From NCBI RefSeq assembly GCF_013415845.1, contig NZ_CP058907.1, forward strand, positions 1,674,001-1,738,000: a DNA stretch of 64,000 nt, read 5' to 3'. Shown piece after piece: positions 51,949 to 55,368 of the stretch. The notes below the pieces were generated by a model that was not told the DNA's origin, made no database searches, and was given only the letters and a program-made list of their open reading frames with translations. Source of the stretch: Rhodopseudomonas palustris. Its GTDB lineage: Bacteria > Pseudomonadota > Alphaproteobacteria > Rhizobiales > Xanthobacteraceae. The position numbers were made by a program, and so were the translations under genes. Numbering within the stretch: the stretch's first letter is position 1; the number at the start of each line of letters is the position of its first letter.

Positions 51949-54900
51949 ATGCAGTTGAAATTCATTAGCGACGATGAAATTGCTTTCGAGAGAGCTCAGC
52001 GAAGTATTGATGTCGAGTTCAAGTATGACGTTGTGATTTGTAGTGCCCCAAGCGATCGCGCACTAATTCGTCCGTTTGCGGAGTGGCTCCGCAAGGCGGG
52101 ACTGACTGTGTGGTTTGAGGATTGGATTCGCCAGACCGAAGAGCCAAACAGGGGTGAAATCGAATTTTCGTTAGAACACTCGCGTGTCATGGTCTTCTGT
52201 ATGACCGCGGATGCCTTTGGCGCCAATTGGCCTGATCTAGAAGAAAGAACGCTGCGATTTCGAGACCCGCTAAATAGGCGTCGCAGATTTGTACCGATTC
52301 TTCTCAGCTCCACGAGCGTCCCGCCGGCCCTTTCGCGGATTGAATGCATCGACGTATTGTCGGATGGACCTGATCTAGCCAAAGCGAAACTATTGGAAGT
52401 GTGTGCGGAGAGGACTACCTCTCTAAGGCATGATGACGCAAGATTCGTTTTGAAGAATTCAGCTCACCTAAACTACAAGTACAATGAAGTTAGGCACTGC
52501 TCTTTTAGTAAGGATGGAAAGTTCGCGTTGGTCGCAGGTACGCAGCGGATAATTCATCTATGGGACCTAGAGACACGGCGCTGCCTTAAGTCGCTAGCGG
52601 GCCATAGTGGTGATGTTGTGTTTGTCTGTTGGTCTCCAAATGAAGAGTTAGCAATTTCGGCATCGTATGATCATACGTTGCGTTTGTGGAATCCTCATAC
52701 GGGCGAAAATCTCTCGGTACTTAGTGGGCATGGAGCCCCCGTCTTGTGTGTCTCCTGGAGTCAAGATCAAAAAAAACTACTATCTGGGGCTACTGATGGG
52801 GGAATTCGAGTATGGGATTTGGTGAATTGTGAATGCGTCGGTTCTTTTGAAGTGCACGGAATTCAAATTATTAGTCTCGAGTGGAGCTCAAATCAAAATA
52901 TGGCATTGTTGGGCTGTTCGGATGGAACGGTGCGACTTTGGGATGTGCACGCTGGAAGAAACGTTCGTGTATTTGAAGGTCACACTAAGTCGGTACTTGG
53001 TGTCGCATGGAGCGTTGATCAAAGGACCGCGGTATCTTGCTCGGGAGATAGAACGATCCGTCTATGGAATATTGAGACGGGTGACTGTCTAAGGGTTCTC
53101 GAAGGGCATACGCAATACGTTTCTTGCATCGCGTTAAATGCTGAAGGGCAGCTGCTGTCTGGGTCCGACGACAGGACTGTGCGTCTCTGGGATATCGGCG
53201 GAGGGCGATGTGTCGAAACCTTTTCAGGACTCTGGGGTGTAGTAAGTGGACTGAGCTGGGGTTCGCAAAATCAAAGCATCAATTCAATTGATTCTGACGG
53301 AAGATTCCAGAGTTGGGATCTTTCAAGTTCGCAGAAAGTGTCGGTCTGGAGTGCCGCGATAGATGAGCAAGTCAAATACACAAATGCGAAAGTGCTTTTG
53401 GTTGGAGATACGAGTTCAGGTAAGACGGCGCTCGCCCATAGGCTCGCAACAGGGGAGTGGAGGCCGAGCGAAGCGTCAACAATTGGAGCTTGGTCAACGC
53501 AATGGAAGCTCGAGCACAACGATGTAGATTATCAAATCGAGAGAGAAGTATGGTTGTGGGACTTTGGTGGGCAGGCCGACCAACGTTTGATTCATCAAAT
53601 GTACATGGAGGATGCGGCGCTTGCCGTGCTTGTATTTGATGGCCAGAAAGAGAATCTCTTCGATGTCTTGGGGCAGTGGGATCGTGACATAGCAAAGGCG
53701 GGCGGAAAGAGTCTTTCAAAATTGCTAGTAGCTGGGCGCATCGATGCCGGTGGTTTGCGCGTTAGTCGACACCAACTGGGGGTGTTCGCAGAGGAGCGCG
53801 GATTTAGTGATCTGATAGAAACAAGTGCGAGACTGGGAACGGGCTGTGATCATCTCCGTGATGCGATCGTTCGTGGAATTAGGTGGGAAAGCATTCCCTG
53901 GCGTTCGTCGCCACTTCTATTCAAGAAACTCAAAGATGGAATTGTGAACATCAAGGATGAGGGGCGGATTCTAATTCGGCTCAATGAGCTCAGGGATTTA
54001 CTTGAGCTTAGATTCTTTGGTGAGATAGGGAAGTTTTCGCAGGAAGAGCTGCATGCAGTGGTTGGTCTGTTGGCCGGGCCGGGCATAGTGTGGGAATTGA
54101 AGTTTGGAGATTGGATATTGCTCCAGCCTGAGAGGATCAATGCTTATGCTCAGGCGGTCATTCAGGCGATGCGCAATGATAAGCAGGAGCTTGGTTGTGT
54201 GTTGGAGGAGGATATTCTTGCAGGGCGGCTCGACTATTTGGCTTCAATCGGGAGGGTTAGTGAGGATGATGAGCGCTATATACTTCTGTCTGTGCATCAG
54301 ACTCTGATTGAGCGCAGTTTGTGCTTCCGTCAACATACCGAAGACGGGCCTGTCTTGGTGTTTCCCAGTTATTTTAGAAGGCGTAAGCCGGAGCTAACTA
54401 GTCATCCTTCGATCTGGGTTAGCTATCGATTTGACGGATTTCTTGATGATGTATACTCCACTCTTGTCGTACGATTGCATCATACCGCGCCATATAAATT
54501 GGATCAGCTCTGGCATTATGCTGCTGATTTTAGGACGCTGACTGGCAAGCGGCTTGGAATTAAGCTTGTTCGTCTTAATGAGGGTCGTGGAGAGTTGCAA
54601 TTGTATTTTGAGAGCTCCGTTTCGCTCAACGAGACTATTATATTTTGTAAGTATGTACATGAGCATCTGCTGCAAAAAGCAGAAGATATATCGCGAATTC
54701 GCCACTACGTCTGTCCTCGTTGCCACTCTCCAGTTCGCGATTCCGAGGTTGCGATGAGAAAGCTTCAGGGGTGGAATTCGAGCGGAATGAAAGAGGTGGC
54801 GCCATCTATCATTTGTCAAGATTGCGAGAAACGGATTCTTCTTTGGGACGATATGGAGAAGTGCTTTGCAAGTGGGGAGAGCCAACAACGAGTTCATGAG

Positions 54901-55368
54901 CTTCAGGAGCAGTCGGCGAGGGGGCTCGATAGCGAGAGCAAGGAGCGTTTGCTCGTGGGCGAAGTAATTTCGCAAGTTGCGCTAGCTGGGCAGATCAGTA
55001 GAGAAATAAGTGTGTCTGATCATGGTATTGATTTAGAGATTGAATTTAAGACAGACGATGGTCTAGCGACAGGTCAAAAGGTGTATGTTCAACTTAAATC
55101 GGGTGATTCTCATCTTTCATTCAGAAAAAAGGATGGAGTTGAGATTTTCAAGATTCGAAAGGCTAGGCACGTTCAATACTGGCGAGAACAGTCGTCGCCT
55201 GTGTTGCTGATTATTCGGAAGTCTGACGGGCAAATTCGATGGATGGATGTTCGAGATTATCTCAGGAGAACGTCAGGGAACGTTCGGCACATAGAGTTTA
55301 GAGGTGAGCGTTTTGACGTGATGAGCATCCGGCGTTTACGTCAATCCGCGCTGAGCGGAGAGTTTTAG
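51949..55368 (+). CDS. TIR-WD40-Roco GTPase-COR-Zn-DUF4365 multidomain protein (candidate anti-phage STAND/NLR-like system)
   Basis: 1139 residues from the ATG at 51949; GTGs at 51895 and 51940 are in frame. Domains: TIR at about 24-135 (YDVVICSAPSDR; candidate catalytic Glu98 in NWPDLEE); seven WD40 repeats at about 173-460, each ending LWD/LWN/VWD/SWD; GTPase at about 479-650 with P-loop GDTSSGKT 486-493 and DFGGQ 538-542; COR-like region at about 652-910 (WRSSPLLFKKLKDGI, VFPSYFRRRKPE); CPRC/CQDC at 922-925 and 956-959; DUF4365-like nuclease at about 997-1107 (GIDLEIEF with Asp1028, VQLKSG with Gln1048/Lys1050). GC is about 45% in one row counted. It is bracketed by ctrA repeats. Sensing by WD40, switching by Roco and killing by TIR NADase and/or nuclease are inferred. 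Confidence 0.88.
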   Translation: MQLKFISDDEIAFERAQRSIDVEFKYDVVICSAPSDRALIRPFAEWLRKAGLTVWFEDWIRQTEEPNRGEIEFSLEHSRVMVFCMTADAFGANWPDLEERTLRFRDPLNRRRRFVPILLSSTSVPPALSRIECIDVLSDGPDLAKAKLLEVCAERTTSLRHDDARFVLKNSAHLNYKYNEVRHCSFSKDGKFALVAGTQRIIHLWDLETRRCLKSLAGHSGDVVFVCWSPNEELAISASYDHTLRLWNPHTGENLSVLSGHGAPVLCVSWSQDQKKLLSGATDGGIRVWDLVNCECVGSFEVHGIQIISLEWSSNQNMALLGCSDGTVRLWDVHAGRNVRVFEGHTKSVLGVAWSVDQRTAVSCSGDRTIRLWNIETGDCLRVLEGHTQYVSCIALNAEGQLLSGSDDRTVRLWDIGGGRCVETFSGLWGVVSGLSWGSQNQSINSIDSDGRFQSWDLSSSQKVSVWSAAIDEQVKYTNAKVLLVGDTSSGKTALAHRLATGEWRPSEASTIGAWSTQWKLEHNDVDYQIEREVWLWDFGGQADQRLIHQMYMEDAALAVLVFDGQKENLFDVLGQWDRDIAKAGGKSLSKLLVAGRIDAGGLRVSRHQLGVFAEERGFSDLIETSARLGTGCDHLRDAIVRGIRWESIPWRSSPLLFKKLKDGIVNIKDEGRILIRLNELRDLLELRFFGEIGKFSQEELHAVVGLLAGPGIVWELKFGDWILLQPERINAYAQAVIQAMRNDKQELGCVLEEDILAGRLDYLASIGRVSEDDERYILLSVHQTLIERSLCFRQHTEDGPVLVFPSYFRRRKPELTSHPSIWVSYRFDGFLDDVYSTLVVRLHHTAPYKLDQLWHYAADFRTLTGKRLGIKLVRLNEGRGELQLYFESSVSLNETIIFCKYVHEHLLQKAEDISRIRHYVCPRCHSPVRDSEVAMRKLQGWNSSGMKEVAPSIICQDCEKRILLWDDMEKCFASGESQQRVHELQEQSARGLDSESKERLLVGEVISQVALAGQISREISVSDHGIDLEIEFKTDDGLATGQKVYVQLKSGDSHLSFRKKDGVEIFKIRKARHVQYWREQSSPVLLIIRKSDGQIRWMDVRDYLRRTSGNVRHIEFRGERFDVMSIRRLRQSALSGEF
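55365..55368. repeat. Left target-site duplication (TTAG) of the IS3-family element
   Basis: TTAG here is repeated at 56634-56637 directly after the right inverted repeat. Four-base duplications are usual for the IS407 group. The duplicated bases include the TAG stop of the large gene, so its reading frame is unharmed. Confidence 0.85.

Follow-up and report, generated by a model that had tools for sequence, protein, structure and literature searches.

In a window of 64,000 nucleotides of Rhodopseudomonas palustris (contig NZ_CP058907.1, positions 1,674,001 to 1,738,000) we find a gene for a 1139-residue protein that joins a TIR domain, a WD40 propeller, a Roc-COR GTPase module, a zinc-ribbon-like motif and a DUF4365 domain. 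We consider it probable that this protein is a stand-alone NLR-like non-self sensor, switched by its GTPase, which depletes NAD+, cleaves nucleic acids or does both, and so kills or arrests the cell. Beyond the single protein, the balance tips slightly toward a bacterial class of single-protein immune receptors with a Roco (LRRK2-type) switch, a HET-E-like fast-diversifying WD40 propeller as non-self sensor and interchangeable TIR, DUF4365 or cyclase outputs, of which the window protein would be the two-effector form. The presence of a sensor, a switch and effectors in one chain, the diversification of the sensor face in relatives, the exchange of effectors and the apparent movement of the gene between phyla together give the family the look of a conflict receptor.

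Domain architecture, proposed active residues and effector exchange

The initial annotation had read a TIR domain, seven WD40 repeats, a Roc GTPase, a COR region, two CxxC pairs and a DUF4365 domain into one protein, and domain searches and a fold match confirm each of these parts (Table 1). The reading frame is intact, with 1139 codons open and the proposed catalytic residues kept. The start is assumed to be the ATG at 51949, with an alternative in-frame GTG at 51895 also open, and residues 1-20 of the window protein are filled in only ~11% of the aligned relatives.

Table 1. Features of the receptor gene and its surroundings, in window positions
Feature	Position	Strand	Basis or detail
Shortened duplicate of ctrA 3' end, left edge of insert	51535-51873	-	339 bp, 97% identical to 56661-56999
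Whole gene, 1139 residues, TIR-WD40-Roc-COR-zinc ribbon-DUF4365	51949-55368	+	Reading frame, domain searches
TIR_2 domain, residues 28-140	52030-52368	+	Pfam match, E 1.5e-15
Seven-bladed WD40 propeller, residues 168-457, proposed sensor	52450-53319	+	Domain scan
Roc GTPase, residues 481-599	53389-53745	+	PF08477, E 5.3e-22, above cut-off
COR region, ~residues 650-915	53896-54693	+	Fold match
Zinc-ribbon-like CxxC...CxxC (C922, C925, C956, C959)	54712-54825	+	Weak Pfam matches, below cut-off
DUF4365 PD-(D/E)XK-type nuclease domain, residues 1014-1133	54988-55347	+	Segment search, E 3.3e-22
IS3-type insertion sequence, HTH_Tnp_1 and rve, 1265 bp	55369-56633	+	Domain matches
Intact ctrA, right edge of insert	56743-57444	-	Sequence

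Glu98 (52240-52242), proposed from the start as the candidate active residue of the TIR domain, aligns with the W-x3-E glutamate of AbTIR (alignment to 7uwg/8g83), which we take to be the catalytic residue of that enzyme. The window protein thus shares the TIR_2 domain and this glutamate with AbTIR and other bacterial TIR NADases, but its TIR domain is embedded in a five-part receptor and its NADase activity is predicted. At the other end of the protein, the candidate PD-(D/E)XK residues of DUF4365 are Asp1028, Glu1030 and Gln1048-x-Lys1050 (alignment to 9qbq), and the best PDB sequence match of this part is 9qbq/9qcc, deposited as 'DUF4365 domain-containing protein'.

Between the two effector domains, Roc carries a P-loop (GDTSSGKT, 486-493) and a DFGGQ motif (538-542), and COR follows directly, which is the tandem arrangement of Roco proteins. 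Roc and the N-terminal part of COR give fold matches to 4wnr and 3dpu, with alignment rows that cover mostly Roc (6-182 of the model) and barely test the other parts; the Pfam scan gave no match in the COR region. The switch is a Roco GTPase and not a NACHT or AP-ATPase, as had been claimed: PF08477 lies above the cut-off, which neither NACHT (E 0.12) nor nSTAND3 (E 0.091) reaches, and a STAND ATPase switch was rejected. No leucine-rich repeat (LRR) was found among the best 25 of 57 Pfam families for the whole protein or in the four scanned segments, WD40 repeats being present instead.

Of 7991 candidates scored in a search with residues 470-1139, 1876 proteins reached an E of 1e-3 or lower, and among the matches listed 119 besides the query share 60-64% identity over 98-100% of this region. 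An N-terminal TIR together with a C-terminal DUF4365 is present in 81 of the 82 listed proteins of at least 1040 residues, the window protein included; the remaining 38 of the 120 are shorter, many from short contigs, and 8 of these have a TIR. Homologues with the same domain order, which the initial annotation had named as a check, therefore exist, so that the protein is not unique, and a singleton or fusion artefact was rejected. Residue conservation was assessed on the 78 rows of 1040-1210 residues (42 of 120 were left out for length). E98 is conserved in 78/78, as are G486, G491, K492, T493, D538, G541, Q542, R597 and D599 of Roc, each in 78/78, and E1030 of DUF4365; D1028 and K1050 are found in 77/78 each. 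The proposed catalytic residues of both effectors are thus retained, in line with the initial reading, and their near invariance in full-length relatives places the proposed active sites of both enzymes under constraint. Judging by the alignments and by what is known of these folds, these residues are presumably catalytic in both enzymes.

Other arrangements occur among the relatives. In P0014, P0089 and P0104 an additional N-terminal AAA-like ATPase domain precedes the TIR (~340 residues in P0014 and P0089), assigned by Pfam annotation in P0014 and P0089 and by resemblance in P0104, and the Roc-containing relative P0176 has a TIR and then a C-terminal HATPase_c histidine-kinase-like domain.

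Carrier genomes also encode WD40-Roc-COR proteins in which the only TIR is C-terminal (loci L060, L061 and L059, the last by sequence); L011 has a C-terminal-TIR protein as well, the N-terminus of which lies beyond the fetched stretch. When the Roc-COR-zinc region of the L059 protein was used as query, 120 proteins were listed (the query's own database copy included). A C-terminal TIR is present in 77 of these (one with an N-terminal TIR as well), DUF4365 in 32 (15 with an N-terminal TIR) and a class III cyclase-like tail in 8, and in 3 no effector could be read. Among the matches listed, nearly every N-terminal TIR belongs to a protein of the DUF4365 form. A Roc-COR core that carries differing C-terminal effectors, a trait of the AP-GTPase conflict systems discussed below, is therefore present in this family. 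The cyclase-tailed WD40-Roc-COR-zinc proteins are P0204, P0205, P0208, P0226, P0230, P0231, P0236 and P0238; PF00211 was confirmed in P0208 and is annotated by Pfam in P0204, P0230 and P0238, and the tail was assigned by source name in P0226 and by resemblance in P0205, P0231 and P0236. These proteins are possibly a signal-producing version of the same receptor. At L011:3-11064, two WD40-Roco relatives lie less than 11 kb apart, one with a C-terminal TIR and the other matching the query from the window through its DUF4365 end.

Diversification of the proposed WD40 sensor face in relatives

Variability along the 42-residue repeat was determined from 430 repeats of 78 proteins (82 long proteins were taken, 4 of which were not parsable), with an extraction that takes only repeats 42 residues apart, or four of seven in the window protein (P0001). 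Four of the five positions that vary most are 17, 19, 35 and 37, with entropies of 4.0, 3.7, 4.0 and 3.0 bits; the fifth is position 16 (3.2 bits). V18 and D36 have entropies of 1.4 and 1.2 bits, and the rest lie within 0-2.7. In het-d/het-e, the strongly selected codons 7, 9, 25 and 27 flank the conserved codons 8 and 26 (PMC1805685), and mapping by motif from these descriptions places positions 17, 19, 35 and 37 on the same four codons at an offset of ten. Positions 17, 19 and 35 correspond, again by motif, to R1-2, R1 and D-1, with which WD40 proteins make contacts on their top face (PMC3419727).

A first estimate of the ratio of nonsynonymous to synonymous substitution rates (dN/dS) was saturated, and near-identical repeat pairs were therefore used. 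DNA was taken from 32 genome loci, of which 10 had usable repeat pairs of at least 80% identity; position 16 was placed in neither group. The ratio is 2.27 at positions 17, 19, 35 and 37 vs 0.31 elsewhere, with a bootstrap range over loci of 1.19-4.70 for the former (0.95% not above 1). Among 20000 random draws of four positions, one has a proportion of nonsynonymous differences (pN) as high. Three loci of C-terminal-TIR paralogues give a dN/dS of 2.78 (16 pairs, 70% identity).

Several results pull the other way. The saturated comparisons reach a dN/dS of only ~1.0 at the four positions, and L011, scanned whole with its two paralogues mixed, gives 0.46-0.50. The control with non-Roco WD40 proteins, in which the pooled ratio is 0.48 and that of locus L037 is 6.54, has only 8 usable pairs, which is too few. 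There is also partial overlap between the loci tested and the proteins on which the four positions were selected. In the window copy, the 4 extracted repeats have a mean identity of 0.345 and are diverged, not currently homogenised, so that the signal of selection comes from relatives and not from the window copy itself. With these points and a weak control, the sensor face of the relatives is under diversifying selection. As in the HET-D/HET-E (NWD) NLRs, the sensor consists of WD40 repeats that in some relatives are near-identical to one another within a protein and that diversify at the same four positions; in contrast to the window protein, with its unhomogenised repeats, those proteins are fungal and have a NACHT switch and a HET effector (PMC1805685).

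Insertion beside ctrA, distribution and neighbourhoods

The receptor gene (GC 0.488) is a recent single-gene insertion beside ctrA in the window genome. The insert (51874-56660) lies between the 339-bp duplicate of the ctrA 3' end and the intact ctrA, and holds the receptor gene and one IS3-type element. Both copies of the ctrA 3' end (51535-51873 and 56661-56999) include a terminator-like tail. This flanking arrangement suggests entry by recombination at ctrA, which may have been the insertion site by homologous recombination. The IS3-type element begins directly after the stop codon of the receptor gene, has the ends TGACCTTGCCCC / GGGGCAAGGTCA and an apparent 4-bp target duplication, TTAG; near-identical copies number three in the window genome, i.e. 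two besides 55369-56633. The receptor gene has no match in 15/15 congeners, and cheR, ctrA and fliI stand together without the insert in 10/15 of them (fetched 3.7 kb), cheR being unmatched there in the other 5, so that the original claim of an acquired gene holds. The 60 nearest genomes contain only partial matches, nearly all confined to the WD40 region.

A scan of 84,980 species genomes with a strict pattern found at least 32 loci, in Pseudomonadota, Acidobacteriota, Planctomycetota, Bacteroidota, Verrucomicrobiota, Cyanobacteriota, Myxococcota, Zixibacteria and others. The tree was built from 29 cores (4/33 were left out with a best matching segment below 400 residues) and has many open forks; ten phyla are represented among the 28 loci placed on it, and the window protein sits on a fairly long branch (0.74). 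Phylum labels change 18 times on this tree vs a shuffled mean of 18.4 and are no more clustered than shuffled labels, which is consistent with lateral transfer, though binning errors in metagenome-assembled genomes could contribute. In 398 sampled genomes of the window's phylum there were 2 matches at E up to 1e-60, the window genome and one relative of 33% identity in which only Roc-COR is covered. The reading frame of a family match is interrupted by a stop codon in 5/22 carrier genomes (G071, G073, G076, G078 and G082), which would fit a gene that is costly to carry; faulty sequencing or binning may also account for these stops.

No conserved partner gene was found among 338 neighbouring open reading frames (ORFs) at the 32 loci, some with short flanks, and the widest neighbour cluster occurs at 5 loci, suggesting that the gene acts alone. 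The enrichment of defence genes in the neighbourhood, which the initial annotation had also named as a check, did not materialize: 59 PADLOC families were found with 116 neighbours (30 loci) vs 214 with 116 controls from 27 regions of carrier genomes. The measure counts families, not genes, and the control list contains many type I specificity and methyltransferase models. A few restriction-modification proteins thus appear to swell the control, and we read the outcome as no enrichment rather than depletion. It counts against a simple defence-island argument. A single scan of viral contigs found no relative; this weighs against the main reading, and a phage-borne gene was rejected on it.

Elsewhere in the window, an AT-rich ORF of 486 codons (38984-40444, minus strand) adjoins tRNA-Val (40686-40760) where GC content is low. 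Its residues 28-224 match the PADLOC candidate family PDC-M36A (E 1.7e-8), and its C-terminal part resembles a PD-(D/E)XK nuclease by eye, with no Pfam match in the scan. It is possibly a second acquired defence gene.

Proposed mechanism, alternatives and relation to known systems

In the mechanism that we propose, the WD40 propeller would hold the resting protein off until a foreign protein, probably from a phage or other mobile element, binds its top face. Binding would free the Roc-COR GTPase switch, with a change in nucleotide and oligomeric state, and the new assembly would gather the TIR domains, which would use up NAD+ or produce a signal nucleotide, and the DUF4365 domains, which would cut nucleic acids without sequence preference; the infected cell would die or stop. 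What the propeller binds, how the steps follow one another, the two enzyme activities and any gain against phage are our inferences. For one SPARDA system, the DUF4365/DREN domain is described as a collateral nuclease activated by tetramerisation and acting against phages and plasmids (PMC12205087). The immune-like role assigned at the outset is favored by the diversifying sensor face of relatives and by effector swapping, but not by the neighbourhood test. Likewise, of the proposed NLR/STAND-like nature the NLR-like part finds support in the diversifying sensor face of relatives, whereas the STAND NTPase does not stand, Roc being found instead.

The same machine could serve as a receptor for programmed death or kin/allorecognition, with a variable protein of other strains or a host stress state as ligand, by analogy with heterokaryon incompatibility in fungi. 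The same four positions diversify in het-d/het-e, themselves allorecognition genes, and the neighbours without defence-family enrichment and the viral-contig scan without a relative fit it as well. We nevertheless judge it unlikely. Most of the bacterial TIR systems investigated to date act against phages. The patchy spread over many phyla fits conflict with mobile elements at least as well, and the DUF4365 of SPARDA targets phages and plasmids (PMC12205087). It is very unlikely that the protein is a regulatory Roco GTPase, whose TIR would feed a signal nucleotide into a pathway of housekeeping or development, with DUF4365 acting in DNA processing and WD40 as a scaffold. Cyclase-tailed paralogues would indeed make signals and not kill directly, and the functions of bacterial Roco proteins were little known in a 2019 review (PMC6337361), but the recent insertion, the absence from all 15 congeners, the 2/398 sampled genomes of the phylum (window genome included), the lack of conserved neighbours and the diversifying selection in relatives argue against it. 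Least probable of all is that the window copy, in a family that is an immune system, is an inert passenger brought by recombination at ctrA and unexpressed or unselected: its repeats are diverged, its branch is fairly long, the IS3-type element abuts its stop codon and internal stops occur in 5/22 carrier genomes, yet its frame and proposed catalytic residues are intact.

The protein resembles several described systems in part. Conflict systems built on AP-GTPase(Roc)-COR, with an LRR sensor and a wide choice of effectors that includes TIR, were predicted in 2021 (Kaur et al., PMC8195603), and AP-GTPase-COR modules also occur in vWA ternary systems (PMC7159879). The former share with the window protein the Roc-COR switch, a fast-evolving repeat sensor N-terminal of it, exchangeable C-terminal effectors and a predicted counter-invader role; their sensor is LRR, whereas it is WD40 here, and the available part of the description names no N-terminal TIR, DUF4365 or sensor-face selection, all of which are seen in the WD40-Roco family (PMC8195603). 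The DUF4365 nuclease domain is shared with SPARDA (DREN-APAZ and short pAgo), but neither Argonaute nor APAZ was found in the window protein, which has a propeller sensor and a GTPase switch (PMC12205087). LRRK2 and the Chlorobium tepidum Roco protein have the same Roc-COR fold (3dpu, 4wnr), in contrast with neither LRR nor kinase being found in the window protein, and all prokaryotic Roco proteins identified until 2019 were placed in the LRR-RocCOR group (PMC6337361). Swarozyc and TEP1/NWD proteins combine a TIR-like NADase with WD40 in several eukaryotic members; their domain is DUF4062 and not TIR_2, eukaryotic members have a NACHT ATPase switch, and the available text mentions no Roc-COR or DUF4365 (PMC13174449, preprint). 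LRR-Roco immune receptors have also been proposed in brown algae (2024; PMC11378527).

In the literature searched, with most subscription journals and supplementary files outside its scope, no paper was found that brings DUF4365, TIR and WD40 together, nor, in the texts available, any description of a WD40 sensor with HET-E-like selection, of an N-terminal TIR with a C-terminal DUF4365, or of the cyclase outputs. The initial claim of an undescribed architecture therefore holds, within that literature, for the WD40/TIR/DUF4365 combination and not for Roc-COR systems as such, since those with LRR had already been predicted (PMC8195603); the WD40 sensor with HET-E-like selection, the TIR/DUF4365 pairing and the cyclase outputs appear to be new.

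If the proposal is correct, bacterial WD40-Roco proteins would gain a function, giving bacterial Roco proteins a role, and the fungal strategy of recognition by WD40 repeats would have arisen independently, with a bacterial counterpart to the diversifying WD40 sensors of fungal allorecognition. Bacterial NLR-like immunity would then not be tied to STAND ATPases, as a LRRK2-family switch built on a Ras-like GTPase would suffice. With two effectors on one switch, directed at NAD+ and at nucleic acids, the receptor would also be secured against phages able to block either one.

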